This document shows, piece after piece, positions 4,133 to 18,972 of a DNA stretch of 64,000 nt (its first letter is position 1; each line of letters opens with the position of its first letter). Origin of the DNA: Streptomyces caeruleatus. GTDB taxonomy: Bacteria; Actinomycetota; Actinomycetes; Streptomycetales; Streptomycetaceae. The position numbers and the translations under genes were made by a program. Below the pieces are notes generated by a model. It made no database searches. It was not told the DNA's origin and worked only from the letters and a program-made list of their open reading frames with translations. The stretch is from the NCBI RefSeq assembly GCF_001514235.1, contig NZ_KQ948924.1, forward strand, positions 751,832 through 815,831, in the 5' to 3' direction.

Positions 4133-5191
4133 TCAGCACTTCTCCCGCAGCGAGTGCAGATGCGCGCTCGAACGGCGTGCGAAGGTCAACGACTCGGTCG
4201 GGTTGTCGTGCTCCGCCTGCCAGTGGTGGGCGAACCGCTGTCCGCGCAGCCTGGTCACAGCGGAGATGAACCGCTTGTAGTCGATGTCGCCGTCACCGAC
4301 GTCGACCATGTCGTAGCCGTACTGGTTGGTCGGATCGCTCACGCCGTCCTTGACGTGGAAGAGCGGGTAGCGGTGCGGCTGCTTCAGTACGTAGTCCAGG
4401 GGCTCGAAGGGGGCGGCCGATCCGTCGGGCCGCTTCGAGAAGCGGAACTGGCCGGAGTACGCCCAGAAGATGTCCATCTCCAGGTACACGAGGTCGGGGT
4501 CGGTCTCCGCGAGCAGCACGTCGTAGAGGCGCACCTTGGGGTTGTCGGTGGCGAAGGAGAACTCCTCGGAGTGGTTGTGCTGGTAGAACTTCAAGCCGCG
4601 CGCCTTCGCCGCGGCACCGTAGGTGTTGAACTCCTCGGCGGCACGCTTCCAGGCGTCGACGGTGGAGCCGTAGCGGAACGGGCCGGACGCGGTGCCTATG
4701 TGCTTCAGGCCGAGGGCCTGGGCGTCGTCGAGGACCTTGGTGAGGTTCTGGGCGAAGGTGTAGGCGTTCGGGTCGTCGGAGTAGTAGCCGACGTGGCTGC
4801 CGATCGGGTTCAGGCCGTGGTTCCTCGCCAGCCTCTTGAGCTGGGCGAGGGTGATCGGTCCGGCCGAGCCCTGGGTGTATCCGGCGAACTCGACCTCGTC
4901 GTAGCCGTACTTCTCCAACTCGGCGAAGACAGGGGCGAAACCGAGCGTGGAAACCTTGTCGCGCAGGCTGTAGAGCTGGATGCCGAGGCGACCGGGCGGC
5001 AGGACGGGACGGCCGCGGCCGGCGCCGCGGGAGGTCGCGTCGGTGGTGGACGCGGCGCCCGGAGCGGCGGTCACGGGGGCAGCGGCGGCGCCCAGCAGGG
5101 CCGCGGCCGTGGTGCCCGCGGCCACGCCGAGCATGCCTCGTCTGCTGAGGCGGTGGGTGAGTTCGGGATCCGTCTGGGAAAAGCGGCTCAT
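4133..5191 (-). CDS. Tat-exported sugar phosphate isomerase/epimerase-like TIM-barrel protein
   Basis: 352 residues. ATG 5191 was chosen because it opens a Tat signal: SRRGMLGVAAG near residues 15-25, then an Ala-rich hydrophobic stretch and an AAP-type cleavage region near residue 40. The longer open frame upstream overlaps the phosphodiesterase gene antisense-free but lacks coding character. The mature part is a xylose-isomerase-like TIM barrel (GIQLYSLRD at about 75; HNHSEEF, FHVKDG and EHDN as likely metal or substrate positions). Members of this class exported to the cell surface include 3-keto-glycoside-processing enzymes and inositol-type isomerases; the substrate here is unknown. It lies 83 bp after the ebo-like operon and may be its last gene or separately transcribed. 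Confidence 0.85.
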   Translation of the reverse strand: MSRFSQTDPELTHRLSRRGMLGVAAGTTAAALLGAAAAPVTAAPGAASTTDATSRGAGRGRPVLPPGRLGIQLYSLRDKVSTLGFAPVFAELEKYGYDEVEFAGYTQGSAGPITLAQLKRLARNHGLNPIGSHVGYYSDDPNAYTFAQNLTKVLDDAQALGLKHIGTASGPFRYGSTVDAWKRAAEEFNTYGAAAKARGLKFYQHNHSEEFSFATDNPKVRLYDVLLAETDPDLVYLEMDIFWAYSGQFRFSKRPDGSAAPFEPLDYVLKQPHRYPLFHVKDGVSDPTNQYGYDMVDVGDGDIDYKRFISAVTRLRGQRFAHHWQAEHDNPTESLTFARRSSAHLHSLREKC

Positions 5192-5274: not shown

Positions 5275-6780
5275 TCAGCCGAGACCGGCGAGTTGGAGCA
5301 GAAGTGACTTCACATCGGTGGCCGCGACGCGGTCGCCGACAGCGCGGGGGGGGGTGGAGCAGATGAGGAGCGGACCGTCGGCGTCGCTCGCTGGGATGCG
5401 GCCATGGCTGCCGCGAATAGGTGAGGGATCCAGAGGCACGACCGCCATGCGGTAGCGCATGCCGAGTTTCTTGCGGGCGAGCGCGGTCGCCGCCTTGACC
5501 TTGACGTAGGGGTCGAGGGGATCCATGAAGAGTTCGACCGGGTCGTAGCCGGGTTTGCGATGGATCTCGACGAGTCGCGCGAAGTCGGGCGCGCGGGCGT
5601 CGTCCAGCCAGTAGTAGTACGTGAACCAGGCGTCCGGCTCCGCGACGGCGACGAGCTCGCCGGAGCGCGGGTGGTCGAGGTGGTGGGCCTTCTTGCCCTC
5701 GTCGTCGAGGAGTTGCTCGATGCCGGGCAGTCCGTCCAGGGCGGCCCGGGTCGCGTCGAGGTCTTCCGGCCTGCGTACGTAGACATGGGCGATCTGGTGG
5801 TCGGCGACCGCGAAGGCGCGTGACGCCATCGGGTCCAGGTACTCCATGCCGTCCTGGGTGTGTACTTCGAGCAGCCCTGCCTGCCGCAGGGCGCGGTTGA
5901 TGTCGACGGGGCGGCTCACGCGAGTGATGCCGTACTCGGACAGCGCGACGACGGTACGGCCCTCGGATCGGGCGTCGTCCAGCAGCGGGGCCATAGCTGC
6001 GTCCAGGTCGGCGGCCGCCTTCAGGGAGCGTGGGTCGTCGGGGCCGAAGCGCTGCAAGTCGTAGTCGAGATGAGGGAGGTAGCACAGGGCCAGGTCGGGG
6101 TGGCGGGTGCGGATGATGTGGCGGGTCGCGTCGATGATCCAGCGGCTGGACACGAGATCGGCGCCGGGGCCCCAGAAGTGGAACAGCGGGAACGTGCCGA
6201 GTCTCCCGGTGAGTTCGTCGTGCAGGGCGGGCGGGCGGGTGTAGCAGTCGGGTTCCTTGCGGCCGTCGGAGTAGTAGATCGGACGGGGGGTGACGGTGAA
6301 GTCGGTGTCGGCGCCCATGGCGTACCACCAGCAGATGTTGGCGACGGTGTAGCCGGGGTGTGCGCGGCGGGCGGCGTCCCAGAGTTTGTCGCCGGCGACC
6401 AGGCCGTTGTGCTGGCGCCACAGGAGTACGTCGCCGAGGTCACGGAAGTACCAGCCGTTGCCGACGATGCCGTGCTCCGACGGGTGGGTGCCGGTGAGGA
6501 AGGTGGACTGGGCGGCGCAGGTGACGGCGGGCAGGACGGTGCCGAGCGGGGCGTGGCAGCCGGACTGGGCGAGTCTCTTGAGGTGCGGCATGTGGTCGAG
6601 GAGACGGGGGGTGAGGCCGACGACGTCGAGGACGAGGAGAGGGGTGGGGCGGCGCTGAGCGGTGGCGTCCGGTCGGGGTGCTGGGCGGCCTCGGGGTGCG
6701 GTGGGCGGCGCTGTCGGGCTGGCCGGGTCCGCCGGATCCATCAGGTCCGCGGCGTCCGTCGGGTCGAGCGGCTCGGTCAT
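5275..6780 (-). CDS. Type I phosphodiesterase/nucleotide pyrophosphatase family protein (EboF-like)
   Basis: 501 residues, alkaline-phosphatase superfamily. Metal and nucleophile positions are recognisable: LLVLDVVGLTP (first Asp, about residue 50), AVTCAAQSTFLTGTHP (nucleophile Thr), YLPHLDYDLQRFGPDD (Asp/His), ALSEYGI where the usual SDHG appears as SEYG, and ADHQIAHVYV. There is no signal peptide; the first 40 residues are Pro/Ala/Asp-rich. The start ATG overlaps the stop of the EboE gene by 4 bp (6777-6780). Family members hydrolyse phosphodiesters or phosphomonoesters; the substrate is unknown. The SDHG-to-SEYG change suggests altered metal binding. Its position after EboE matches EboF of ebo clusters. 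Confidence 0.85.
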   Translation of the reverse strand: MTEPLDPTDAADLMDPADPASPTAPPTAPRGRPAPRPDATAQRRPTPLLVLDVVGLTPRLLDHMPHLKRLAQSGCHAPLGTVLPAVTCAAQSTFLTGTHPSEHGIVGNGWYFRDLGDVLLWRQHNGLVAGDKLWDAARRAHPGYTVANICWWYAMGADTDFTVTPRPIYYSDGRKEPDCYTRPPALHDELTGRLGTFPLFHFWGPGADLVSSRWIIDATRHIIRTRHPDLALCYLPHLDYDLQRFGPDDPRSLKAAADLDAAMAPLLDDARSEGRTVVALSEYGITRVSRPVDINRALRQAGLLEVHTQDGMEYLDPMASRAFAVADHQIAHVYVRRPEDLDATRAALDGLPGIEQLLDDEGKKAHHLDHPRSGELVAVAEPDAWFTYYYWLDDARAPDFARLVEIHRKPGYDPVELFMDPLDPYVKVKAATALARKKLGMRYRMAVVPLDPSPIRGSHGRIPASDADGPLLICSTPPRAVGDRVAATDVKSLLLQLAGLG

Positions 6781-7946
6781 GGCAGCTCCTTCAGGCCGAG
6801 GTCGGTCAGCAGATCGCGGGCGAGGGTGAGTTCGGCCGCGATGCCGTCGGCGAGCTGGCTGCGGGCTCGGGGCCGCAGTTCGGGTGGGAGGGCCTGCCAG
6901 GTGTAGGTCTCGACCTCCAGGTGGCGGGTGAGCGGGTGCGGGCCGCCGACGAGGCGGGTCAGGGCGGTCTTGAGCACGGGGAGTGTGGAGGTGAGGGGTG
7001 CGGCGGGGGCCGCGTGGAGCGGGACGTGGAAGTGGGCCCGCCAGGGCGAGGCGTCGGGCAGGGCGTCGCCCTTGAGGGCCTCGCCCAGGTCGTCGGTGCC
7101 GCGCAGGCCGGCGGCGGTGGCGGTGCGGGTCTGGTGCAGGAAGCGGGGTTCGTCGAAGGCGGCGAGGGCCTCGCGGACTTCGGGGAGGTGGGGGTGTTCG
7201 GCGTGCAGAGCGGCTGAGAGCTGGGACTTGACGACGGGGACGCGTGCTTCGGCGAGTGCGTCCAGGGCGGTGTGCGGATCTTCGAAGGAGGTGGCGAGGT
7301 GACAGGTGTCGACGCAGATGCCGATGCGGTCGTCGCCGATCGCGGTGAGTGGGGTGATGGCGTCGGCGGTGGTCTCGACGGTGCAGCCGGGTTCGGGTTC
7401 GAGGCCGACGCGGATGTCGCGGCCGGTCAGCTCCTGGAGGGCGTCGAGGCGTTCGGCGAGGGTGAGCAGGGCGGTGCGGGCGGTCTCGGCGCGCTGCTCG
7501 TCGTAGGCGGTGCGCCAGGCGAGGGGCAGGGTGGAGATGCTGCCCTGGGTGACGTCGTCGGGGAGAAGTCCGGCGAGGACACGGGCCAGGGCGGTGGTGT
7601 GGTCGAGGCGCTCTGGGTCGGCCCAGTCCGGTTTGTACACACGGTACTTGACCTCTTCGGCTCCGAATCCTTCATACGGGAAGCCGTTCAGGGTGACGAC
7701 CTCGAGGCCTCGCCGGTCGAGTTCGGTGCGCAGTCCGCGCAAGGCGGACGGGTCGCTGACGAGGGCGTGAGCGGCGTCCTTGGCGAGCCACAGGCCGATG
7801 CCGAGGCGGTCTCGGCCGAGCCGGCGGCGGACGGGTTCGCAGTGGTCGCGGAGCTGGGCGAGGATGCCGTCGAGGGTCTCGGCCGGGTGGACGTTGGTGC
7901 AGTAGGCGAGGTGGACGGTGGAGCCGTCGGGGTGGCGGAAGCGCAT
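6777..7946 (-). CDS. EboE-like metabolite traffic protein (TIM barrel)
   Basis: 389 residues. The N-terminus carries the EboE hallmark HLAYCTNVHPAETL (about residues 12-25), followed by a TIM barrel with ETTADAI, GICVDTCHLA and KSQLSAALH segments typical of sugar isomerase-like barrels. ATG 7946 lies 3 bp after the TatD stop, and its own stop overlaps the phosphodiesterase start, so translation is coupled on both sides. In cyanobacteria and proteobacteria ebo genes have been linked to export of a precursor of scytonemin or similar compounds to the periplasm; the biochemical role of EboE is not established. Assignment to the family is firm, function is not. Confidence 0.88.
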   Translation of the reverse strand: MRFRHPDGSTVHLAYCTNVHPAETLDGILAQLRDHCEPVRRRLGRDRLGIGLWLAKDAAHALVSDPSALRGLRTELDRRGLEVVTLNGFPYEGFGAEEVKYRVYKPDWADPERLDHTTALARVLAGLLPDDVTQGSISTLPLAWRTAYDEQRAETARTALLTLAERLDALQELTGRDIRVGLEPEPGCTVETTADAITPLTAIGDDRIGICVDTCHLATSFEDPHTALDALAEARVPVVKSQLSAALHAEHPHLPEVREALAAFDEPRFLHQTRTATAAGLRGTDDLGEALKGDALPDASPWRAHFHVPLHAAPAAPLTSTLPVLKTALTRLVGGPHPLTRHLEVETYTWQALPPELRPRARSQLADGIAAELTLARDLLTDLGLKELP

Positions 7947-7949
7947 GGC

Positions 7950-8870
7950 TCACGCTCCCGTGGCCGGTGCGCCGGCAGGGTCGTGCCGCTGTCTCGGTGC
8001 GCCCGCCGGTCCGTCAGAGTCCTTCGGGGCGCCACGGAGGATGGAGTTGCCCTCGTGGGTGGCTTCCGGGGTCGTGATGTCGAGGTCGAGGCGGCCGCTG
8101 AGCCCGTAGAAGGCGACCGGGTTGCGCCACAGCACGAGATCGACGTCGTCCGCGTCGAAGCCCTCGGCCAGCATCAGGTCCGCGACCCGGCGGGTCTTCA
8201 GGGGGTCGCTCCTGCCCCAGTCGGCGGCGGAGTTCACCAGTACCTGCTCGGGGCCGTACTCCCGGAGGATCGCGACCATCCGTTCCTCGTCCATCTTGGT
8301 GTCGGGATAGACGGAGAACCCGAGCCAGCAGCCGCTGTCCTTGGCCTCCTTGACGGTGGTCTCGTTGAGGTGGTCGACCAGGACGTGGTCCGGGGGCAGT
8401 GCGGATTCCCGGACGACGTCGAGGGTGCGGCGCAGGCCCGCGAGCTTGTCGCGGTGCGGGGTGTGGACGAGCGCGGGGAGTTCGTGGGCGGCGGCCAGCT
8501 GGAGCTGGGCGGCGAGGGCGGTGTCCTCGGCGGGGGTCATCGAGTCGTAGCCGATCTCGCCGACGGCGACGACCTGATCCTTGACGAGATACCGGGGCAG
8601 TTCGTCGAGGACGGCGACACAGCGCGGGTCGTTCGCCTCCTTGGGGTTGAGGGCGAGCGTGCAGTGGTGGGCGATGCCGTGCTGGGCGGCGCGGAAGGGC
8701 TCCCAGCCCAGAAGGGAGTCGAAGTAGTCGAGGAAGGAGGCGACCGAGGTGCGGGGTTGGCCCAGCCAGAAGGAGGGCTCGACGACGGCGCGGATGCCGG
8801 CGGTGTGCATGGCCTCGTAGTCGTCGGTGGTCCGAGAGGTCATGTGGATGTGGGGGTCGAAGAGGCGCAT
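7950..8870 (-). CDS. TatD-family metal-dependent hydrolase (EboB-like)
   Basis: 306 residues. The N-terminal metal motif FDPHIHMTSRTTDDYEAM (about residues 4-21) and downstream GEIGYD, LVHTPHRDK and DHLNE segments fit the amidohydrolase-type TIM barrel of the TatD/EboB group. Known members are phosphodiesterases or amidohydrolases; the substrate is unknown. ATG 8870 overlaps the EboA stop by 1 bp (TGATG). The last 30 residues (after about 275) are Pro/Ala/Gly-rich, low-complexity and probably not part of the fold. Position between EboA and EboE matches the conserved ebo order. Confidence 0.88.
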   Translation of the reverse strand: MRLFDPHIHMTSRTTDDYEAMHTAGIRAVVEPSFWLGQPRTSVASFLDYFDSLLGWEPFRAAQHGIAHHCTLALNPKEANDPRCVAVLDELPRYLVKDQVVAVGEIGYDSMTPAEDTALAAQLQLAAAHELPALVHTPHRDKLAGLRRTLDVVRESALPPDHVLVDHLNETTVKEAKDSGCWLGFSVYPDTKMDEERMVAILREYGPEQVLVNSAADWGRSDPLKTRRVADLMLAEGFDADDVDLVLWRNPVAFYGLSGRLDLDITTPEATHEGNSILRGAPKDSDGPAGAPRQRHDPAGAPATGA

Positions 8871-9994
8871 CAGGACTCCTTGCCGTCGGTGCCGCGGGTG
8901 CCGTGGGGGGCCGGCGGAGTGGCTGTGGGGTCGGTCAGGGTCAGGACGCGGTGCAGGTCTTCGGGGACGGGGCGGCCCGCGGCGGTGCGTTCGGCGGCGT
9001 AGTCACCGAGCATGCGGGCGAGTTCGGCGTCTCGGTGGGCGCGGCGGTCCAGTTCGGCCACGGCGTCGACGGGCACGCCGGTGAACAGGCACTTCAGTAC
9101 GGCGTGGCGCCATTGGTGGGCGTCGAGGTGCCGGGCGGCGTAAGGGCCGACGGCGGCGGAGAGGAGGCGGGTGTCGTTGGTGCGCAGGGCGTCCTCGACG
9201 AGCGGGAGGGCGTCGGGGCCGGGCACGAGATGGGGCAGCGCGTGCAGGACGGCACGGCGTTCGGCGGCGGTGCCCTGGGAGTAGACGCGGGTGACGGCGT
9301 CCGTGTCCGCGCGGGCCGCGTGCAGGATGAGGACGCGGGCGGCGTCGGCGTAGTCGGACCCGCAGCGGCGGCCGGCCTCGGCGATGCGCAGCTCCCAGAC
9401 GGAGATGGGGCCGTGGGTGCCGGGGTGCGCGGCGGCTTCGTCGAGGGCTCGGTGGAGCCAGGAGCGGGCGACGCTGCCGAGGCGGGCCGTGACGTGGCGG
9501 CGCAGGTCGGCCGGTGGGGTGAGGGCGGGGCTCGTGCCCTGCGGGTCGGGCCCTGGGGGCCGGGCGGACTCCCGATGCCCGGGGGTGCCTGCCTCTGCCC
9601 CTGCCCGGCCGTCGGCACCCGTCCGACCGTCGGCACCCGTCCGGCCATCGGCACCCGTCCGGCCCTCGGTATCCGTCCGGCATTCGGTATCAGTCCGGCA
9701 TTCGGTATCCGTCCGGCATTCGGTATCCGGTCTGGACTCCATACTCCGGTCCTGGCTGTCGGCGGCCGGTTTGGACTCCGTCCGTCTGTCCTGGCCGTCG
9801 GCCTCCCGTGGGGACGCCGTGCCCCGGTCCTGGCTGTCGGCCTCCCGTGTGGACTCCGTACCCCGGTCCTGGCCGTCGGCGTCCGGCCCGCGCTCGGTGG
9901 CCTGGTGGGGCTCCGCGCCTGCACGGATGTCGGTGCGCGCGCGGGCCTCGGTGTCCGCGCCCGGGGTGGCCGGGGTGATGCGGGGGTGCGTCAT
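8870..9994 (-). CDS. EboA-domain protein with repeat-rich N-terminal extension
   Basis: 374 residues, much longer than typical EboA proteins (about 200-250). The C-terminal 210 residues (from about LTPPADLRRHV at 158) are the EboA core: mostly helical, with ARSWLHRALDEAAAH, VLHALPHLVPGPDALP and DALRTNDTRLLSAA, resembling a HEAT-like fold. Residues 39-90 are four 13-residue repeats (ADSQDRGTESTRE-like) and 91-135 are seven to eight 6-residue repeats (RTDTEC drifting to RTGADG). Both units are multiples of 3 bp and stay in frame. ATG 9994 overlaps the upstream stop by 4 bp, which supports this start and hence translation of the repeats. The extension is probably disordered; its role is unknown. 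EboA function itself is undetermined. Confidence 0.82.
   Translation of the reverse strand: MTHPRITPATPGADTEARARTDIRAGAEPHQATERGPDADGQDRGTESTREADSQDRGTASPREADGQDRRTESKPAADSQDRSMESRPDTECRTDTECRTDTECRTDTEGRTGADGRTGADGRTGADGRAGAEAGTPGHRESARPPGPDPQGTSPALTPPADLRRHVTARLGSVARSWLHRALDEAAAHPGTHGPISVWELRIAEAGRRCGSDYADAARVLILHAARADTDAVTRVYSQGTAAERRAVLHALPHLVPGPDALPLVEDALRTNDTRLLSAAVGPYAARHLDAHQWRHAVLKCLFTGVPVDAVAELDRRAHRDAELARMLGDYAAERTAAGRPVPEDLHRVLTLTDPTATPPAPHGTRGTDGKES
9590..9880 (-). repeat. In-frame 39-bp and 18-bp tandem repeats within the EboA gene
   Basis: 9725-9880 holds four degenerate 39-bp units; 9590-9724 holds seven to eight 18-bp units (TCCGTCCGGCATTCGGTA-type). Period lengths preserve the frame, and variation is mostly conservative within the unit. 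They are coding minisatellites, likely to vary in copy number between strains. Confidence 0.85.
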
Positions 9995-10956
9995 GAGGTG
10001 CTCCCTTCACGGGTGGCGGAGGGATCGCCGGGGTGTGGGACGAGTACGGGTGATCGGGTGGCCGTGGCCTCGGCGCGGCGGAGGAACGGGAGGGAGAGTT
10101 CGGCGAATTGAGGGCCGGCGTGGGAGTGGCGGGGCAGTTCGACGACGGTCAGGCCCTGGTAACCGGTGGCGGAGAGGGCGGCGAGGACGGGTGGGAAGTC
10201 GATCTCGCCGTCGCCGAAAGGGAGGTGTTCATGGATACCGCGGCGCATGTCCTCGATCTGGACGTGACGCAGCCAGGGGGCGGCGGCACGTACGCAGTCG
10301 GCGGGAGGGAGGGGTTCGAGGCACTGGCAGTGGCCGATGTCGAGGGTCAGGCCGAGGAGGTCCGGGTCGCCGAGGGTGCGGCGGAGCCGGTGGAAGTCGG
10401 CGAGGGTGGCGAGGAGGTGGCCTGGTTCGGGTTCGACGGCGAGAGGGACGCCGGCGGTGGTGGCGGCGTCCAGGACCGGGGTGAGGGCGTCGGCCAGGCG
10501 GTGCCAGGCCGTGTCCGGGTCGGTTCCCTGCGGCGTGGTTCCGCTGAAGCAGTGGACGGCGTGGGCGCCGAGGTCGGCCGCGACGCGGACGGCGCGGAGC
10601 AGCAGGTCGACGCGGCGGGCGCGGTCGTCCGGGTCGGGGTCGAGAAGGGAGGGGCCGTGCTTGCGACGCGGGTCGAGAACGTAGCGGGCGCCGGTCTCCA
10701 CGGTGACGTCCAGACCGAGTGCGTCGAGCCGTCGGGCCAGGCGGTCGGTGCGGGCGGCGAGGTCGGGGGCGTACGGGTCGAGGTGCATGTGGTCGAGCGT
10801 CAGGCCGACTCCGGCGTAGCCGAGGTCGGCGAGCAGGGCCAGGGCGTCGTCGAGGCGGAGGTCGGCGAGGCCGTTGGTGCCGTAGCCGAAGCGGAGGGGG
10901 GTGGGGGAGGCGGCCGGTTCTCCGGGGGCCTGCGCCGGGTGGGGCCGCGGGTTCAT
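9991..10956 (-). CDS. Sugar phosphate isomerase/epimerase-like TIM-barrel protein of the ebo-like operon
   Basis: 321 residues. After a Pro-rich start (about 22 residues) comes a xylose-isomerase-like barrel: FGYGTNGLADLRLDDALALL, HCFSGTTPQG, VPLAVEPEPGHLL (Glu ligand), GLTLDIGHCQCL (Asp/His), RHVQIEDMRRGIHEHLPFGDGEID (His/Glu). ATG 10956 overlaps the stop of the ubiA remnant by 4 bp, and its own stop overlaps the EboA start by 4 bp. The GEIDF motif near the C-terminus is typical of isomerases acting on open-chain or keto sugars. The substrate is unknown; it may act on the product of the inositol-phosphate-synthase-like cyclase at the head of the operon. Confidence 0.85.
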   Translation of the reverse strand: MNPRPHPAQAPGEPAASPTPLRFGYGTNGLADLRLDDALALLADLGYAGVGLTLDHMHLDPYAPDLAARTDRLARRLDALGLDVTVETGARYVLDPRRKHGPSLLDPDPDDRARRVDLLLRAVRVAADLGAHAVHCFSGTTPQGTDPDTAWHRLADALTPVLDAATTAGVPLAVEPEPGHLLATLADFHRLRRTLGDPDLLGLTLDIGHCQCLEPLPPADCVRAAAPWLRHVQIEDMRRGIHEHLPFGDGEIDFPPVLAALSATGYQGLTVVELPRHSHAGPQFAELSLPFLRRAEATATRSPVLVPHPGDPSATREGSTS

Positions 10957-11288
10957 GTGACGCTCACCTTCTTCGTGTGCGCCCGTCCGAGCGGGGCGAG
11001 CGCGGGGACGGCCGTGGCGGTGAGCACTGATCCGTCTCGGGCCGCGAGCGGCGCCTGGGGCGGCACGGTGGCTCGGGTGCCGCCGCCGACGGGTCGCCGG
11101 GGCAGGAACGGTGAGGCATTGAGCGGGGCGTGGACGCGGGGGCGGACGGCGTGGGCGACCGGGCCGCTCAGTGCGTCGCCGGGAATGGCGAACCGGGCGG
11201 TGAGCCACAGCAGTTCGGCCTGGGCACGGCTATGGCGAGGGCTGCGGCTATGGCGAGGGCTACGGCTACGGCTACGGCTACGGCTCAC
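10953..11288 (-). pseudogene. Decayed C-terminal fragment of a UbiA-type prenyltransferase (EboC-like)
   Basis: A 111-codon frame from GTG 11288 to the stop at 10953, placed where ebo clusters have the UbiA prenyltransferase EboC. The last 70 residues read like the C-terminal end of actinomycete UbiA-like proteins (HAPLNASPFLPRRPVGGG, TVPPQAPLAARDGS, then PLGRAHTKKVSVT). Several prolines break what should be membrane helices, and both Asp-rich UbiA motifs and at least 150 N-terminal residues are missing. The first 20 codons come from a hexamer repeat (RSRSRSRSP). Coupling by ATGA to the next gene is preserved, so it may still carry ribosomes to the downstream gene. A short functional membrane protein is the less likely alternative. 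Confidence 0.6.
11230..11283 (+). repeat. Hexanucleotide tandem repeat at the ino1/ubiA-remnant junction
   Basis: Nine hexamers related to CTACGG: two 18-bp units (11230-11247 and 11248-11265, differing at one base) and three perfect CTACGG copies (11266-11283). The tract contains the stop codon of the cyclase gene (11278-11280) and supplies the RSRSRS start of the ubiA remnant. It lies at the breakpoint where the 5' part of ubiA is missing. Confidence 0.85.
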
Positions 11289-12585
11289 GACGCTCCCCTA
11301 CGGCACGCTCGCGCGAGTCGGCGCCCTGTGCGGGCGCGTCGTTGGCCGAGTCGCCGGGACCCGCGCCCCCACCAGCAGCTCGCTGCACGCACTGGCCGAG
11401 GCTCGTGCCCCGCGCGTCGGCTTCCAGCCGTTCGGCGGACTCCCGCGTGGTCTCGCCGGTGCCCGCAGGGCGGAGCCGCTCGGCCAGGCCCGCCAGCGCG
11501 GCGTACTGCTCCCCCAGGCTCGCCGGCCCGTCCCCCACCGGGTCCTTGAAGTAGAAGCCGAGTTCGGTGAGCGGGCCGGTCAGGCCGGTCTCGTGGGCCC
11601 GCGCCGTGAGGCGGGCCAGGTCCAGGACCAGGGGCGCGGCCAGGGCCGAGTCGCAGCCCTGCCAGATGGTCTGGAGGATCATGCGGGTGCCGAGGAATCC
11701 GTCGAAGGCGATGTGGTCCCAGGCGGTCTTCCAGTCGCCGAGAGCGGGGACGTCGTCGATGTGGACCTCGCCCTCGGGGACGGTGCCGAGGGTGTCGGCG
11801 AGGACGCGTTCCTTGCCGGCGTTCTTCGCGGCCGCGGCGGCCGGGTCCGCGAGGGCGGCGCCGTCTCCGCCGCCGAGCAGGTTGGTCCCGGACCAGGCCC
11901 GGACCGTCAGTGCCCGCTGCGCGAATATCGGGCCCAGCACGGCTCGCAGGAGGGTCTGTCCGGTCTTGCCGTCCCGGCCGGCGTAGGGCAGGCCGCTGCG
12001 CTCGGCCTCGCGGGCGGCGACGGGGTGGTGCAGACCCTCGGACGGGGTGAAGTTGACGTAGGGGCAGCCCGCGCGCAGGGCCGCCAGCGCGTACAGGGTG
12101 CTGGCCGGCAGCGGGGCGTCGGGCGCCTGGGACGCCGGTTCGGTGGAGGCGACGTTCACGACCACGGTCCGCTCGAGTTCGTGGCGGTGCGTGAAGTCGC
12201 GTATGTCGTCGGCGAAGGCCGTGATCAGTTCGGCGTCGCTCCTGGTGTCCCCCGGGGTGGGGCCGCCGGTCCTGATCTCCCGGTCGGCGGCGGCGAGTTC
12301 GGCCAAGACGGCGGTCGCGGTACCGGGTGGGAGGACGCCGCCGGCGGTCAGGGTCTCGGCACGTTTGGGCAGGGGGCAGTCGAGGGTGTCGTGGCCGCCG
12401 AAGACGAGGTCGGACAGGGCAGGCAGGCCGCTGTCGGTGAAGGCCGAGGTCTCGGTGACCATGCCGGTGGGCGGATGCAGCCCCGCGGTGATGGCGGCGC
12501 ACCCCGTGACGACGGTGGTGGCGACGGAGCCTCGGGCTCCGATCAGCCACACTCCCACACGCGGTCGGGAGAGGGACGCGGACAT
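11278..12585 (-). CDS. Inositol-3-phosphate synthase family protein (sugar phosphate cyclase) of the ebo-like operon
   Basis: 435 residues. NAD-binding N-terminus GVWLIGARGSVATTVVTG (about residues 11-28), VVVNVASTEPAS (about 145), YVNFTPSEGLHHP, AGRDGKTGQTLLRAVLGPIF and SGTNLLGGGDG (about 230-245) match myo-inositol-1-phosphate synthase proteins. It is the atypical long branch found in actinomycete ebo-like clusters, not the short housekeeping enzyme. Expected reaction: NAD-dependent cyclisation of a sugar phosphate. ATG 12585 has a strong AAGGAGG 7-8 bp upstream and is the first gene of the operon. In ebo clusters this slot belongs to EboD, a dehydroquinate-synthase-like cyclase, so an unrelated cyclase may have replaced it. 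The C-terminus ends in a hexamer repeat. Confidence 0.87.
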   Translation of the reverse strand: MSASLSRPRVGVWLIGARGSVATTVVTGCAAITAGLHPPTGMVTETSAFTDSGLPALSDLVFGGHDTLDCPLPKRAETLTAGGVLPPGTATAVLAELAAADREIRTGGPTPGDTRSDAELITAFADDIRDFTHRHELERTVVVNVASTEPASQAPDAPLPASTLYALAALRAGCPYVNFTPSEGLHHPVAAREAERSGLPYAGRDGKTGQTLLRAVLGPIFAQRALTVRAWSGTNLLGGGDGAALADPAAAAAKNAGKERVLADTLGTVPEGEVHIDDVPALGDWKTAWDHIAFDGFLGTRMILQTIWQGCDSALAAPLVLDLARLTARAHETGLTGPLTELGFYFKDPVGDGPASLGEQYAALAGLAERLRPAGTGETTRESAERLEADARGTSLGQCVQRAAGGGAGPGDSANDAPAQGADSRERAVGERREP

Positions 12586-12669: not shown

Positions 12670-15600
12670 TCAGCCGCCCGTGGTGGGCAGTTCCTTCAAC
12701 TGGATGTTGCGGAAGGAGACCTGGTCGTCGGCACCGTGGTTCTGCAGGCCGATGTGACCGTCGGTCAGGCTCCGCTGGGGGTCCTTGTTGGTGAAGTCGT
12801 TGATCTTGACTCCGTTGAGGAACACCTGGAGGCGTTCGCCCTGGACCTTGATCTCGTAGGAGTTCCACTGGCCGGGCGGACGCAGGACCTGGTCACGGGC
12901 CTTGATGTTCGCCGACTTGAACGAGTAGACGGACCCCGTCGTGCGCTCGGGCGCGTCGGTGGCGTCGATCTGGATCTCGTAGCCCTTGTTCACGGCGGAC
13001 CAGGGGTCGTCGGAGGCCGGGAAGCCCACGAAGATCCCGGAGTTGTCGTCGCCCTGCATCTTCCAGTCGAGCTTGAGGGAGTACGACTTCAGCTCCTTGG
13101 CCTGGTACCAGAGCAGGCCCATGCCGCCCTCGGTCCCCAGGGTGCCGTCCTTGACGTTGAACTTGCCGGGGCCGGCCTGCTTCCAGCCGTCCAGGGTCTG
13201 GCCGTTGAAGATCTCCCGGTAGCCCTTGCTCGGCTTGCAGTCCGCCTTCACCTGGCCGGTGGCGTACTGCAGGCCGCCGAGCAGATGGGCCCGGAAGGCC
13301 TCGTCGGCGTAGGACTCCTTGGTGTGGCCGCCGCCGGTGTAGAAGGAGCGGCCGCCGCCGTAGCTCTGGCACCAGGCGATCGGGTGGTCGCCCTTCATGT
13401 TCCCGCCCTGGTAGGTGGTCTCGTCCAGGGTGGCGAGGACCTTGGCCTGCTCACGCGGGTTGGTGCGGTAGTTGTACCACTCGTCGGTGCGCTCCCAGGC
13501 GTCGCCGAGGTGCCCGGTGGACGGGTGGTCGTGGTCCTCGACGCGGACGGTGGCCTTCTGGATGGCCGGGTGCGAGTCGAAGTAGGCGCCGACGAGACCG
13601 CCGTAGAACGCCCAGTCGTACTCGGTGTCGGCGGCCGCGTGGATGCCCATGTAGCCGCCGCCACCCGCCACGTAGTTCTCGAACGCCTGCTGCTGCTCGG
13701 CGTTGAGGACGTCACCCGTGGTGGACAGGAAGGCCACCGCGTCGTACTTGGCGAGGTTGGTCGTGGTGAACTGCCTTGCCTCCTCGGTCGCGTCGACCGT
13801 GATGCCGGCCGGGCCGCCGAGCTCCTTCAGGGCGGCGATGCCGGCCGGGATGGAGTCGTGCCGGAAGCCGGCGGTCTTGGAGAAGACCAGGACCTTCTTG
13901 CCGCCCTTGAACGGCTGGGTGGAGAACTCGAAGTCGTCCACGTCGTACAGGGCGCCGTCGCCGCCCTTGAAGACCAGGTAGATGTCCGTGGTCTTCCTGG
14001 GCAGCGCCCGCAGGGGCACGTCGACGTTCTGGAACGTCTCCCAGCCGCCGGTGGGCGGGATGTACGCCGAGCCGTGCAGCGGTCCGTCGGGCGAGCCGGT
14101 GCGCAGTTCGATGAAGCCGCCCGCGCCGCCGGAGGAGGCCCTGACGGTCATCTTCTTCTGCCCGGCGAACCGGTAGGGGGTGAAGGAGATCCAGTCGCCG
14201 TCGTTGACGTTGCCGACGGTCTTGCCGCCGTTGGCACCGGTCTTGTCGATGACCGAGACGCCCGACTGGGTGGTGAAGTGCTCGGCCTGGCGGTGCAGCG
14301 GCTGGAGGACGGTGCGGGCGGTGCCGGTCAGTGCCTCCTGGCCGTTCGCCCCGCCGTCGGTGTAGCCGGCGCCGACGACGCCGTAGATGTTGGCGTTGGG
14401 GTCGTGTCCGCCGTCACCCGCGGGTGGCGTCAGGGTGCCCTCGCAGCCCATCTCGCTGGTCAGCTCGTGGGCGTGGGAGTCGTGGCCGAGGCTGTAGGTG
14501 ACCTTGACCTTGGAGCAGTCGACCGTCTCCTCGGGATCGGTGACGGTCACCTTGAAGGGGACCGGCTTGCCGAATTCGGCCAGGGCGCCGTTGCCCGGGA
14601 TGTCGATCCGCACCTTGGGCTCGGTGTTGCCGACGACGATCCGGACGCTGGCGTTGCCGGTGTTGCCCTCGGGGTCCTTGGCGGTGAAGGTGGCGCTGTA
14701 GGTGCCGACCTTCTTGTACTTGTGGGTGGGGTTGAGGCCCTCACCCTTGGTGCCGTCGCCGAAGTCCCAGCTGTAGGTGAGGTCGGTCGAGTCGGCGTCC
14801 TTGGCGGAGGCGGTGAACTTGACGTTCAGGCCGGCCGCGCCGGACGTCTTGTCGGCGCTCACCTCGGCTATCGGGGAGAAGCCGTCCTCGGCGTTCTCGA
14901 TGCGGTACAGCGCGGAGTGCTCGTCGCCCTGGAACCAGGAGATGCCGTAGTCGAGGACGTAGAGCGCGCCGTCGGGGCCGAACTCCATGTCCATGATCTG
15001 GGTGCCGGTCCACGGGAAGTCGTTGATCTTCGCGACGGAGCCGTCGTCGTTCTGCTCGATCCGCTTGATCCAGCGGCGGCCGAACTCGCCGGCGAAGAAG
15101 TCGCCGTCGTAGGCCTCGGGGAACTTCACCTTGGAGTCGAGGTCGGGGTCGTAGCGGTAGACCGGGCCGGCCATCGGCGACTCGGAGCCGGTGCCGAACT
15201 CGGGCACGGAGCCGCCGTCGTACGGGATCCACGCGGCCTGCGCGGGCGGCAGGTCGGTGAGGCCGGTGTTGTACGGCGAGGTGTTCTTCGGGGCGGCGCA
15301 GTCGAACTTCTCACCGGAGGCGCCGGTGGCGAAGTCGTAGTCGACGTAGGCGTCGTTGTTGCCCGTGCAGAACGGCCAGCCGAAGTTGGCGGCCTTGGTG
15401 ACCTTGGCGAACTCGACCTGTCCCGCCGGTCCCCGGCTGGGGCTGGCGGCGCCGGCGTCGGGGCCGTAGTCACCGACGTAGACGATGCCGGTCTTGTCGT
15501 CGACGCTCATCCGGAACGGGTTGCGGAAGCCCATCGCGTAGATCTCGGGACGGGTCTCTTCGGTGCCCGGGGCGAAGAGGTTGCCCTCGGGGACGGTGTA

Positions 15601-16395
15601 CGAGCCGTCCTCGGCGACCTTGATACGGAGGATCTTGCCGCGCAGGTCGTTGGTGTTGGCGGAGCTGCGGCGGGCGTCGAAGGCCGGATTGCGGTTCGGC
15701 CGGTCGTCGATCGGGGTGTAGCCGTCGGAGGCGAAGGGGTTGGTGTCGTCGCCGGTCGACAGGTAGAGGTTGCCGTCCGCGTCGAAGTCGATGTCGCCGC
15801 CGACATGGCAGCAGGTGCCACGGGAGGCCGCGACGTCGATGACCTTCTTCTCGCTGGCCGTGTTGAGCGTGCCGTTGGCGTTCAGGGTGAAGCGCGAGAG
15901 GCGGTTGACGCCGTCGAACTTCTTGAATTCCGCGGCGGTGCCGGTCTCGGGGGCGTCGCCCGTGGGAGTGTCCAGGGGCGGGGCGTAGTAAAGGTAGATC
16001 GCCCGGTTGTTCTTGAAGTCCGGGTCGATGCCGACGCCTTGGAGGCCCTCCTCGTCGTGGCTGTAGACGTCGAGCTTGCCGGCGACCTTGGTGACGCCGC
16101 CCTGGTCGGTCAGGCGGAGTGTGCCGTCGCGCGAGGTGTGCAGGACGCTGCGGTCCGGGAGCACGGCGAGCGACATCGGCTCGCCCATCTCGGGTTCGCC
16201 CTTGGCGAGCGGTACCTGCTGGAACTGGCCCTCGGCGGCTGCCGGTTCGTCGTGTTCCGGGTGTCCGGGGTGGGCGCCGGCGACGGTGGCCGGGGTGCCC
16301 ACGGCCAGGAGCAGGCCGGAGAACAGGGCGACGGCGGTGCGAAGCCTGGGGCGCCTGGGGGTGCGGGTGCTGCTGATGGGTCTGGTTCTGTGCAC
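12670..16395 (-). CDS. Secreted multidomain GSDH-PKD-CBM6-like-ThuA-DUF1080 protein
   Basis: 1241 residues from GTG 16395. A signal peptide (Arg-rich, then a hydrophobic stretch ending near PATVAGA, about residue 40) leads into five domains. First is a PQQ/GSDH sugar dehydrogenase beta-propeller (about 55-510; TCCHVGGDIDFDADGNLYLS). Next come a PKD domain (about 512-600; WDFGDG), a CBM6/CBM35-like domain (about 690-815; ending VDDFEF) and a ThuA domain (about 825-1040; GYMGIHAAADTEYDW). Last is DUF1080, a 3-keto-disaccharide hydrolase-type domain (about 1055-1238; DGWKQAG, DNSGIFVGF). The domain set fits extracellular oxidation at sugar C3 followed by cleavage of the keto-glycoside; the substrate is unknown. 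A 23-bp element shared with the ROK gene lies 166 bp upstream. Confidence 0.9.
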   Translation of the reverse strand: MHRTRPISSTRTPRRPRLRTAVALFSGLLLAVGTPATVAGAHPGHPEHDEPAAAEGQFQQVPLAKGEPEMGEPMSLAVLPDRSVLHTSRDGTLRLTDQGGVTKVAGKLDVYSHDEEGLQGVGIDPDFKNNRAIYLYYAPPLDTPTGDAPETGTAAEFKKFDGVNRLSRFTLNANGTLNTASEKKVIDVAASRGTCCHVGGDIDFDADGNLYLSTGDDTNPFASDGYTPIDDRPNRNPAFDARRSSANTNDLRGKILRIKVAEDGSYTVPEGNLFAPGTEETRPEIYAMGFRNPFRMSVDDKTGIVYVGDYGPDAGAASPSRGPAGQVEFAKVTKAANFGWPFCTGNNDAYVDYDFATGASGEKFDCAAPKNTSPYNTGLTDLPPAQAAWIPYDGGSVPEFGTGSESPMAGPVYRYDPDLDSKVKFPEAYDGDFFAGEFGRRWIKRIEQNDDGSVAKINDFPWTGTQIMDMEFGPDGALYVLDYGISWFQGDEHSALYRIENAEDGFSPIAEVSADKTSGAAGLNVKFTASAKDADSTDLTYSWDFGDGTKGEGLNPTHKYKKVGTYSATFTAKDPEGNTGNASVRIVVGNTEPKVRIDIPGNGALAEFGKPVPFKVTVTDPEETVDCSKVKVTYSLGHDSHAHELTSEMGCEGTLTPPAGDGGHDPNANIYGVVGAGYTDGGANGQEALTGTARTVLQPLHRQAEHFTTQSGVSVIDKTGANGGKTVGNVNDGDWISFTPYRFAGQKKMTVRASSGGAGGFIELRTGSPDGPLHGSAYIPPTGGWETFQNVDVPLRALPRKTTDIYLVFKGGDGALYDVDDFEFSTQPFKGGKKVLVFSKTAGFRHDSIPAGIAALKELGGPAGITVDATEEARQFTTTNLAKYDAVAFLSTTGDVLNAEQQQAFENYVAGGGGYMGIHAAADTEYDWAFYGGLVGAYFDSHPAIQKATVRVEDHDHPSTGHLGDAWERTDEWYNYRTNPREQAKVLATLDETTYQGGNMKGDHPIAWCQSYGGGRSFYTGGGHTKESYADEAFRAHLLGGLQYATGQVKADCKPSKGYREIFNGQTLDGWKQAGPGKFNVKDGTLGTEGGMGLLWYQAKELKSYSLKLDWKMQGDDNSGIFVGFPASDDPWSAVNKGYEIQIDATDAPERTTGSVYSFKSANIKARDQVLRPPGQWNSYEIKVQGERLQVFLNGVKINDFTNKDPQRSLTDGHIGLQNHGADDQVSFRNIQLKELPTTGG

Positions 16396-16659: not shown

Positions 16660-17658
16660 TCAGCTGTTGAACGCGGCGTCGAAGGACGCGCTGGGCGGCT
16701 CGAAGTCGTACGCCTTGAGGCGGGTCAGCGCCTCCGGGGCGCCCTGGAGCCGGTCCATGCCGGCGTCCTCCCACTCCACGGAGATCGGGCCCTTGTAGTC
16801 GATGGAGCGCAGCATCCGGAAGACGTCCTCCCAGGGGACGTCGCCGTGCCCGGCCGACACGAAGTCCCAGCCCCGGCGCGGGTCACCCCACGGCAGATGG
16901 GAGCCGAGGCGGCCGTTACGGCCGTCGAGGCGCTTGCGGGCCTCCTTGCAGTCGACGTGGTAGATGCGGTCGCGGAAGTCCCAGAGGAAGCCGACGGGGT
17001 CGAGGTCCTGCCAGACGAAGTGGGAGGGGTCGAAGTTGAGGCCGAAGGCGGGGCGCCCCCCGACCGCCTCCAGGGCCCGCCAGGTCGTCCAGTAATCGTA
17101 GGCGATCTCACTGGGATGGACCTCGTGCGCGAACCGCACGCCCTCCTCGTCGAAAACGTCCAGGATGGGGTTCCAGCGGGTCGCGAAGTCCTCGTAGCCG
17201 CGCTCGATCATCGACTCGGGCGCGGGCGGGAACATCGCGACGAGGTGCCAGATCGCGGAGCCGGTGAAGCCGATCACCGTGTCGACGCCGAAGGCGGCCG
17301 CGGCCCGCGCGGTGTCCTTCATCCGCGCGGCGGCCCGCTGCCGGACGCCCTCCGGGTCGCCGTCGGCCCACACCTCGCCCGGCAGGATGGCCTGGTGGCG
17401 CTCGTCGATGATGGCGTCGCAGACCGCCTGGCCGACCAGATGGTTGGAGATCGCCCAGCACTTGAGGCCGTACTTGTCAAGCAGGGCCTTCCTGGAGTCG
17501 ATGTACGACGGGTCCGCGAGGGCCTTGTCGACCTCGAAGTGGTCGCCCCAGCAGGCGAGTTCGAGACCGTCGTAGCCGAAGTCGCGGGCGAGCCGGCAGA
17601 CCTCCTCCAGCGGCAGGTCGGCCCACTGGCCGGTGAACAGCGTGAACGTACGCGGCAT
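16660..17658 (-). CDS. Sugar phosphate isomerase/epimerase (AP endonuclease family 2 fold)
   Basis: 332 residues from ATG 17658. It is a TIM barrel with [15 protein letters not shown] (about 4), [18 protein letters not shown] (about 28), [12 protein letters not shown] (about 155), [17 protein letters not shown] (about 185; Asp/His metal ligands), HVDCKEARK (about 216; His) and [11 protein letters not shown] (about 295; Glu). Members of this branch isomerise or epimerise keto-sugars or inositols in the cytosol. It lies 15 bp after the Gfo/Idh dehydrogenase on the same strand, so the two probably act in sequence on the sugar brought in by the upstream ABC transporter. Exact substrate cannot be read from the sequence. 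Confidence 0.88.
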
Positions 17659-17673: not shown

Positions 17674-18972
17674 TCAGACCGCGATCGGGGTGTAGACGGA
17701 GTTCTTCTCGGCGCTCTCCTCCACCGCCGCGAGCACGCGCTGCACGTGCAGCCCGTCGGCGAAGGAGGGTTCGGGCTGCCGGCCCTCGGCGATGGCGTGG
17801 ACCAGGTCGCGGGCCTGGTGGACGAAGGTGTGCTCGTAGCCGAGGCCGTGGCCCGGCGGCCACCAGGCGTCCAGGTAGGGGTGGTCGGGTTCGGTGACGA
17901 GGATGCGGCGGAAGCCGGCGTGGGCGCCGGGTTCGATGCCGTCGTGGTAGGAGAGTTCGTTGAGGCGTTCCAGGTCGAAGGCGATCGAGCCGCGCTCGCC
18001 GTTGAGTTCGATGCGCAGGGCGTTCTTGCGGCCGGTGGCGTAGCGGGTGGCCTCGAAGGAGGCGAGGGCGCCGGAGGGGAAGCGGCCCGTGAACACGGCG
18101 GCGTCGTCGACCGTGACCAGCCCCGTGGCGCTCTCGGCCGACACGGCGGACAGCCCCTTCACCGCCCCGCCGGGCAGCGGACGCTCCCGTACGAAGGTCT
18201 CCGTCAGCGCGGACACGCCGCTCAGCCTCTCCCCCGCCAGGTACTGCGCGAGATCGATGATGTGCGCGCCCAGGTCGCCCAGCGCGCCCGAGCCCGCCAG
18301 TTCCTTGCGCAGCCGCCAGGTCAGCGGGAACTGCGGGTCGACGAGCCAGTCCTGAAGGTACGTCACCCGTACGTGGCGCAGGCGTCCGAGGCGGCCGTCG
18401 GCGACCATGCTGCGGGCGAGGGCGGTGGCGGGCACCCGACGGTAGTTGAAGCCGACCATGGCCAACTGGCCGCGTTCATAGGCTTGTTCGGCAGCGCCCG
18501 CCATCGCCTCGGCCTCCTCGACGCTGTTCGCGAGGGGCTTCTCGCACAGGACGTGCTTGCCTGCGGCCAACGCGGCGAGCGCGATCTCGGCGTGGCTGTC
18601 GCCCGGGGTGCAGATGTCGACGAGGTCGATGTCGTCCCGCGCGATCAGGGCCCGCCAGTCGGTCTCGGTCGACGCCCAGCCGTGCCGCTCGGCCGCCGCC
18701 CGCACAGCGGTGGCGTCCCGCCCGCAGATCGCGGCCAGGACCGGGCTGCGGGGCAGATCGAAGACCCGGCCCGCCGTGCGCCAGCCCTGCGAGTGCGCGG
18801 CACCCATGAACGCGTAGCCGACCATGCCGACGCGCAGCGGCGGCCTTCCGGCCGCCGTGCCTGGCGGGGACACCTCGGGCCCGGTCCCGGCCGCGGGGCC
18901 GGACACGCCCGCCCCGTCAGCCGTGGCCCCTGCCTGCGCCTCGGCCTCGTCGGGCTGCTGCGGCTGTCCCAT
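17674..18972 (-). CDS. Gfo/Idh/MocA-family NAD(P)-dependent sugar dehydrogenase
   Basis: 432 residues from ATG 18972. The N-terminal 48 residues are Ala/Gly/Pro-rich and absent from typical members (about 380 residues). The Rossmann fold follows with RVGMVGYAFMGAAHSQGW (about 48), DLVDICTPGDSHAEIALAAL (about 110), and the family CEKPLANSVEEAEAM (about 140; catalytic Lys of EKP). Downstream are GDLGAHIIDLAQYLAG and the C-terminal alpha/beta domain. Likely reaction: reversible oxidation of a sugar or cyclitol hydroxyl with NAD(P). It is followed 15 bp later by the isomerase gene. An alternative internal start at GMVGYAF is too late, so a GTG near codon 48 would be the only competitor. Confidence 0.88.
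   Translation of the reverse strand: MGQPQQPDEAEAQAGATADGAGVSGPAAGTGPEVSPPGTAAGRPPLRVGMVGYAFMGAAHSQGWRTAGRVFDLPRSPVLAAICGRDATAVRAAAERHGWASTETDWRALIARDDIDLVDICTPGDSHAEIALAALAAGKHVLCEKPLANSVEEAEAMAGAAEQAYERGQLAMVGFNYRRVPATALARSMVADGRLGRLRHVRVTYLQDWLVDPQFPLTWRLRKELAGSGALGDLGAHIIDLAQYLAGERLSGVSALTETFVRERPLPGGAVKGLSAVSAESATGLVTVDDAAVFTGRFPSGALASFEATRYATGRKNALRIELNGERGSIAFDLERLNELSYHDGIEPGAHAGFRRILVTEPDHPYLDAWWPPGHGLGYEHTFVHQARDLVHAIAEGRQPEPSFADGLHVQRVLAAVEESAEKNSVYTPIAV

Follow-up and report, generated by a model that had tools for sequence, protein, structure and literature searches.

A variant ebo operon of Streptomyces with a myo-inositol phosphate synthase-type cyclase in the apparent place of EboD

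In a 64,000-nucleotide stretch of Streptomyces caeruleatus DNA (hereinafter, the window), we observed a minus-strand operon, spanning positions 12585 to 5275, that appears to be a variant of the ebo gene cluster. In this variant, EboD, a cyclase of the 3-dehydroquinate (DHQ) synthase family, is apparently replaced by a non-homologous cyclase of the myo-inositol phosphate synthase (MIPS) type, usually together with one additional TIM-barrel enzyme distinct from EboE, and the operon would feed the proposed prenylated-cyclitol traffic pathway. This reading, toward which we lean with some reservation, is based on gene content, linkage, the exclusion of EboD in the examined loci and the catalytic residues of the cyclase. 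The ebo clusters of eustigmatophyte plastids, Bacteroidota, cyanobacteria and others likewise combine the EboA domain, EboB, EboE, EboF and a UbiA-family protein in one operon. By contrast, the window variant has the MIPS-type cyclase instead of EboD, contains an additional TIM-barrel gene, belongs by its UbiA protein to the SCO3242 family, which scores under the EboC cut-off, and shows a different gene order.

The genes were named in a preliminary description made from the DNA sequence alone, and their order and coordinates are corroborated by the open reading frames (ORFs) and profile scores. From the upstream end, these are:

11278-12585, minus strand: MIPS-type cyclase in the EboD slot (PF01658, 96.6 bits; PF07994, 123.8 bits)
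10953-11288, minus strand: eboC (UbiA, SCO3242 family) with an in-frame internal deletion, 111 codons remaining (matching positions 221-287 of the 287 of NF045897)
9991-10956, minus strand: TIM-barrel protein, the additional gene of the variant (PF01261, 155.7 bits)
8870-9994, minus strand: EboA, with a C-terminal EboA domain and an N-terminal low-complexity part (NF035938, 166.7 bits, cut-off 50)
7950-8870, minus strand: EboB, a TatD-type metal hydrolase (PF01026, 48.2 bits)
6777-7946, minus strand: EboE (NF035939, 429 bits, cut-off 250)
5275-6780, minus strand: EboF, a type I phosphodiesterase (PF01663, 238.7 bits)

The overlaps of 1 to 4 bp that had been described across the operon hold for most junctions (remnant/TIM barrel, 4 bp; TIM barrel/EboA, 4 bp; EboA/EboB, 1 bp; EboE/EboF, 4 bp), but the cyclase and the UbiA remnant overlap by 11 bp and a gap of 3 bp separates EboB from EboE. 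The cyclase is indeed the first gene of the ebo set, but another gene on the same strand ends only 84 bp upstream, so the cyclase may not open the transcript. EboB and EboF, for which no specific models turned up in the profile libraries searched, are 40% and 55% identical, respectively, to their counterparts in an EboD-type locus (L054). The best NCBIfam models for the TIM-barrel protein, namely, hydroxypyruvate isomerase, IolO, 2-oxo-tetronate isomerase and IolE, all score far under their cut-offs. EboA reaches 63 of the 320 bits required by the full-length EboA family NF035937, and its long N-terminal low-complexity stretch consists of repeats of the kind RTDTEC/RTGADG. The EboA domain is predicted to be all-helical and repeat-like (predicted local distance difference test score, pLDDT, 92); assignment to a known repeat fold was attempted and rejected, with no Foldseek match at E <= 0.001 and VIA-align Z scores to repeat proteins of at most 10.1, a size that, according to the tool's own note, possibly reflects just a common arrangement.

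By its predicted fold and catalytic residues, the cyclase is a member of the MIPS family. The structural model (mean pLDDT 83) matches the archaeal MIPS of Archaeoglobus (AfMIPS, 1u1i) with Z scores of 45-46 and a root-mean-square deviation of 1.8-1.9 over 356 aligned residues; the match to Ari2 (6k96), the five-membered-cyclitol-phosphate synthase of aristeromycin biosynthesis, has a Z score of 27.8. The positions mutated in the K278A, K367A and N255A crystal structures of AfMIPS correspond to K258, K347 and N235 of the window protein, all of which are retained, and K254, K286 and D312 are likewise conserved. A profile of 14 ebo cyclases gives AfMIPS 330 bits, as against 74 for Ari2 and 66 for Ino1 of Mycobacterium tuberculosis, so that Ari2, although also a MIPS-family enzyme of specialized metabolism, is far more distant from the ebo cyclases than the archaeal enzyme. 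AfMIPS, despite the common fold and catalytic lysines, has LGDYDG where the window cyclase has LGGGDG, and only the latter sits in an ebo operon. All 17 ebo cyclases examined share the motif NxLGGGDG, and all 13 other actinobacterial MIPS that were compared have LGN[RG]DG instead. A tree of 31 sequences separates the 17 ebo cyclases from the rest by a branch with 96/97 support; the single Ino1 row in it is a very long branch of unsure placement. Given the retained catalytic residues and fold on the one hand and the peculiar motif on the other, the cyclase is expected to be active, possibly with a changed specificity. In one related genome (G618, locus L195, 10305-13271), a cyclase match and a UbiA match fall in one open frame, which could be a fusion or merely an open frame.

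We considered the possibility that the cyclase is simply an additional source of inositol for mycothiol or phospholipids, as its family and conserved catalytic residues would allow. Identity with the housekeeping Ino1 of the strain, which by the preliminary description would have refuted the reading, was rejected: a second MIPS of the host (L001, contig C8) scores 736 bits with the mycothiol Ino1 model TIGR03450 (cut-off 638), and the window cyclase scores 28.5 bits and so falls outside this family. The distribution of the cyclase bears on the same point. We compared samples of 396 genomes from the phylum, 394 from the class and 246 from the genus. In the class sample, 99 cyclase genes were found in 94 genomes, and all 94 carry full-length EboE, so that the cyclase occurs without full-length EboE in 0 of 394 genomes; 7 of the 99 genes do lie more than 12 kb from full-length EboE, three of these being partners of ebo loci at contig ends. 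In the phylum sample, the cyclase profile gave 17 matches of at least 566 bits, all at ebo loci, the next match having 326 bits. With a housekeeping Ino1 elsewhere in the host, and with the ebo cyclases comprising one group with a motif of their own, a role in general inositol supply is disfavored and, in our view, highly improbable.

The linkage of the cyclase with ebo genes is extensive. In the phylum sample, EboE was detected over the cut-off in 18 genomes and with any match in 19; the cyclase lies within the ebo operon in 17 of the EboE genomes, G381 has EboD without this cyclase, and G279, the nineteenth matching genome, has a broken locus with neither. The class sample contains 107 full-length EboE loci in 102 genomes, with the cyclase no more than 6 kb from EboE at 92 of the 107. 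The other 15 comprise seven lone EboE genes, three second loci (G000, G128, G618) and three loci at contig ends in genomes whose cyclase lies at the end of a different contig. Of the last two, one (G515) has a fragment of the cyclase, with an intact gene elsewhere in the genome, and one (G413) has no cyclase. UbiA of the SCO3242 family was present in all 80 EboE genomes tested (79 over the cut-off) and lies at most 2.5 kb from the cyclase in 77. In one genus (L182, L196, L197; G596, G727), the set is split, with the genes for the cyclase, EboA, EboB and EboE apart from those for UbiA, the TIM barrel and EboF, both places being shown for G727 only. In locus L045, EboA is fused to the additional TIM-barrel protein of the variant; a fusion of actinobacterial EboA to a xylose-isomerase-like domain is noted in PMC5133447.

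EboD and the MIPS-type cyclase excluded each other cleanly in the comparison that the preliminary description had proposed: a re-scan counting every query found no fetched locus with both. The search for the DHQ synthase family covered 80 of the 102 genomes with EboE; the match closest to EboE on the same contig, to which this distance refers, is 85.6 kb away, and 71 of these 80 genomes have a single copy, presumably AroB. The other 22 genomes likewise showed no DHQ synthase near EboE in the fetched stretches (for G000, the whole genome). The placement of the MIPS-type cyclase in the EboD slot was thus upheld for the host, in which no DHQ-synthase-family gene, and hence no EboD, was found near either of its two ebo loci (the second is described below). 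The possibility that EboD is encoded elsewhere in the host was examined and rejected, the three DHQ-synthase-family genes over the Pfam cut-off all being on other contigs; one sub-threshold match lies on the contig of the operon, some 0.2 Mb away. EboD was found at 27 re-scanned loci, namely, 20 of 80 loci from outside the actinobacteria (among the matches listed), six named plasmids and one actinobacterium. The 80 outside loci, none of which is titled as actinobacterial, were fetched with an EboD-type EboB and ranked by likeness to it, and this set therefore favors the EboD type; among these listed matches, 60 have neither cyclase and none has the MIPS type, and 46 of the 60 have an EboB homolog without an EboC, EboE or EboF match at the score limit used. 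We also opened 18 plasmid regions selected from among the matches listed. All six non-actinobacterial EboE loci on named plasmids (Deinococcus, Mycetohabitans, Ketogulonicigenium, Aureibacter, Azospirillum and Salipiger) have a '3-dehydroquinate synthase' and no MIPS, and all five full operons on Streptomyces plasmids have an 'inositol-3-phosphate synthase' and no DHQ synthase.

Ebo-like sets with a MIPS also occur outside the actinobacteria. On a plasmid of Gemmatirosa kalamazoonensis, an EboE-EboB-EboF core adjoins genes for a MIPS-type cyclase, a UbiA protein and a TIM-barrel protein, and the 19 kb covered gave no EboD match; this core resembles the EboD type, its EboB scoring 469 bits with an EboD-type query versus 198 bits with the window query. 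Three haloarchaeal plasmids (Halobaculum, Halocatena and Natronococcus) hold together genes for a MIPS, a phosphodiesterase, an EboB-like TatD protein (39-42% identical), UbiA and two TIM-barrel proteins, as in the actinobacterial variant, but there is no EboA match in these three sets and the EboE model reaches only 20-28 bits. A fourth haloarchaeal set (Haladaptatus) has the same genes without a cyclase match in 17 kb. The MIPS motif of the Gemmatirosa and haloarchaeal sets is LGN.DG, the same as in a MIPS outside any ebo set (L211). Hence, MIPS enzymes from outside the LGGGDG clade also occur next to ebo genes, and cyclases may have been exchanged more than once.

The UbiA remnant had been regarded as part of the operon; it is present in the window, but the genus sample shows it in this genome only, the relatives having intact UbiA. 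The ORF (11288-10953) matches NF045897, the SCO3242 family prenyltransferase model, with an E value of 3.6e-13 (49.7 bits, cut-off 260) and retains roughly 25 residues from the N-terminus and 67 from the C-terminus, with approximately 0.74 kb lost in frame relative to G128, so that EboC is represented in the window by a remnant. Since the deletion leaves the frame unbroken, the translational coupling to the next gene is kept. Among 94 matching genomes of the genus sample, the deletion junction was matched only by the window's own genome. Nine intact UbiA proteins from relatives and second loci score 271-385 bits with NF045897 and 90-145 bits with the EboC model NF035940, under its cut-off of 250.

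The same host contains a second ebo locus (L035, contig C1, 928-947 kb), 178 kb from the window operon, with genes for an intact UbiA, TIM barrel, EboA, EboB, EboE, EboF, a flavin adenine dinucleotide (FAD) oxidoreductase and an inositol-monophosphatase-like protein (best model HisN, 125 bits, cut-off 275); no cyclase was found at this locus. This arrangement recurs in G128 and G618, and all three genomes also hold the cyclase locus. The two host loci are complementary, the window operon lacking intact UbiA and the second locus lacking the cyclase, which fits, without proving, a supply of EboC in trans from the second locus. The idea that eboC is lost in the first locus wherever the second exists was rejected, eboC being intact in G128 and G618. 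The loss of eboC, seen in this genome only, together with the existence of the second locus, might instead signify that the window operon is a decaying copy that has not worked since the deletion. All other frames remain open, and the ratios of nonsynonymous to synonymous substitution rates (dN/dS) of the six remaining genes versus G128 and G618 are 0.09-0.36, close to the 0.09-0.32 for five of these genes between G128 and G618, both with intact eboC (the TIM-barrel value for this pair, 0.6, derives from an over-long frame and was excluded), although the deletion may have arisen too recently to register in these ratios. On balance, we regard decay as an unlikely explanation.

The genes that flank the operon in the window raise another possibility. 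These are:

12670-16395, minus strand: large protein with GSDH, PKD, CBM6, ThuA and 3-keto-disaccharide hydrolase domains, 84 bp upstream of the cyclase
16660-17658, minus strand: TIM-barrel protein, upstream neighbor
17674-18972, minus strand: Gfo/Idh/MocA oxidoreductase, upstream neighbor
4133-5191, minus strand: TIM-barrel protein with a signal-peptide-like N-terminus (by eye), 83 bp downstream of the operon

Conceivably, the operon belongs to a separate pathway of sugar or inositol breakdown that shares ebo ancestry and has as its partners the neighboring Gfo/Idh, ThuA/3-keto-disaccharide hydrolase and ATP-binding cassette (ABC) importer genes. In six of eight same-genus loci of the phylum sample, the operon has as neighbors the large ThuA/GSDH gene and the TIM-barrel gene that lies upstream in the window, similar TIM-barrel and Gfo/Idh genes lie near the Gemmatirosa locus, and three of the four haloarchaeal sets (L207-L209, L212) have Gfo/Idh, ThuA, pyrroloquinoline quinone (PQQ)-sugar-dehydrogenase or ABC importer genes nearby. 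By contrast, the operon occurs without sugar-oxidation-type neighbors in L043, L045, L047 and L050 and beside polyketide and peptide synthesis genes in others, and it retains EboA, EboC and EboF, which, to our knowledge, are not needed in the known sugar-breakdown pathways. A dedicated breakdown pathway thus seems to us improbable, about on a par with decay of the window copy.

The plasmid contexts in Streptomyces are diverse. In two plasmids, a ScyD/ScyE-family gene (243 and 255 bits, against a cut-off of 80) directly precedes the cyclase. Genes for a multicopper oxidase and an aromatic prenyltransferase lie within about 10 kb of these two operons, and cydABCD genes are near. Among the other plasmid operons, one adjoins a type II polyketide synthase (PKS) and two lie some 5 kb from nonribosomal peptide synthetase (NRPS) genes. 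A single EboE (L199, NZ_CP108489.1) is found inside a type II polyketide cluster with a gene order much like that in NZ_CP024990.1, where the full operon lies beside the cluster, as though L199 had lost the remaining ebo genes. The operon is thus found beside chemically different plasmid clusters, as a general metabolite-traffic module might be. Being common to chemically unrelated clusters, such a module more likely handles their products than builds the scaffolds, and, given the sugar-oxidation-type genes that flank the operon in the window and in the six same-genus loci, its cargo may vary from place to place.

For the ebo variant with a replaced EboD, we envisage the following scheme. The cyclase would convert glucose 6-phosphate, or a close sugar phosphate, to the phosphate of a ring-shaped sugar alcohol; enzymes of the MIPS family form myo-inositol 1-phosphate from glucose 6-phosphate. 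The TIM-barrel proteins and EboB would isomerize or dehydrate the cyclitol phosphate, EboC would attach a prenyl chain, EboF would remove or exchange the phosphate, and EboA would hold the complex together; in the window's genome, EboC would come from the second locus 178 kb away. As in the preliminary description, we infer a prenylated product and its export. Since the product of MIPS-type enzymes still carries its phosphate, a phosphorylated ring would be expected at the start of the actinobacterial pathway. The sugar phosphate cyclases, the class of EboD, release the phosphate (PMC5133447), and the designation of the window cyclase as functionally parallel to EboD is therefore only partly apt. 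The prenylated product would serve metabolite traffic across the membrane, in the manner of the Nostoc ebo genes that are needed for moving the scytonemin monomer out of the cytoplasm, the mutants keeping the cargo inside. Yurchenko et al. (2016; PMC5133447) describe the ebo product as unknown and propose a prenylated cyclitol; the main text of that paper does not contain the word inositol. Literature searches, which covered open-licence papers, found no link of MIPS to ebo and no later paper naming the ebo product.

A more specific scenario is that ebo operons make a redox-active membrane lipid with a cyclitol-derived head group: dehydration would turn the cyclitol into an aromatic or quinone-like ring, and EboC would prenylate it. 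Aromatization erases the stereochemistry of the ring, so EboD and MIPS could feed the same product, which would explain the swapping of the cyclases. If so, the lipid would act in oxidations and in traffic on the outer side of the membrane, its partners being ScyE-type propeller proteins, multicopper oxidases, sugar dehydrogenases and the products of cydABCD genes. The assayed EboC relative, according to PMC9235831, farnesylates quinolines in vitro but yielded no product with phenols or catechols, and we consider the lipid scenario quite doubtful, more so than either decay or sugar breakdown.

Several observations weigh against the interpretation of the window operon as an ebo variant with a replaced EboD. 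The operon lacks most of eboC, and the supply of EboC in trans is putative. The flanks in the window resemble sugar-oxidation and import genes, not an antibiotic cluster. A common downstream product is not self-evident, because MIPS and EboD should yield different rings. Neither cyclase was found in the fetched stretches of L035, L036, L165 and L169, which contain EboC, EboA, EboB, EboE and EboF, or in the broken locus L052. Both cyclases are also absent, among the listed matches, from those 14 of the 80 outside loci that have between one and three of EboC, EboE and EboF (contig ends unchecked). The additional TIM-barrel gene is absent in L183 and in the L169 stretch. At seven loci (L168, L172-L177), an EboE gene that passes the family cut-off stands without any further ebo gene in its vicinity. 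Finally, PMC9235831 describes, in general terms, an ebo cluster with EboD for the actinobacterium Saccharomonospora. In one of the lone EboE loci (L173), the gene lies among those for an E1 dehydrogenase, an M24 peptidase and an FMN/FAD dehydrogenase, a context that suggests that the EboE model may take in a paralog with another role.

In Streptomyces coelicolor, SCO3242 and SCO3243 are listed among the genes for the calcium-dependent antibiotic (CDA), SCO3210-SCO3249 (PMC3610822), where a 'Myo-inositol phosphate synthase' adjoins a 'Putative transferase', the namesake of the SCO3242 prenyltransferase family. The pair resembles the beginning of the operon described here, but it is filed under CDA and the likeness rests on these two genes; our literature searches found no paper linking them to ebo.

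Taken together, we judge the operon to represent a real, conserved variant of ebo with a non-homologous replacement of EboD, its product and chemistry being unproven. The existence of two non-homologous, mutually replacing cyclases constrains the product, in that the common enzymes must accept what both can make. Since the chemistry of MIPS is well understood, the Streptomyces version offers a tractable entry to the ebo pathway. Furthermore, the variant suggests a reason why the CDA genes listed for S. coelicolor include one for a myo-inositol phosphate synthase, and it ties ebo to several gene clusters of the antibiotic type.

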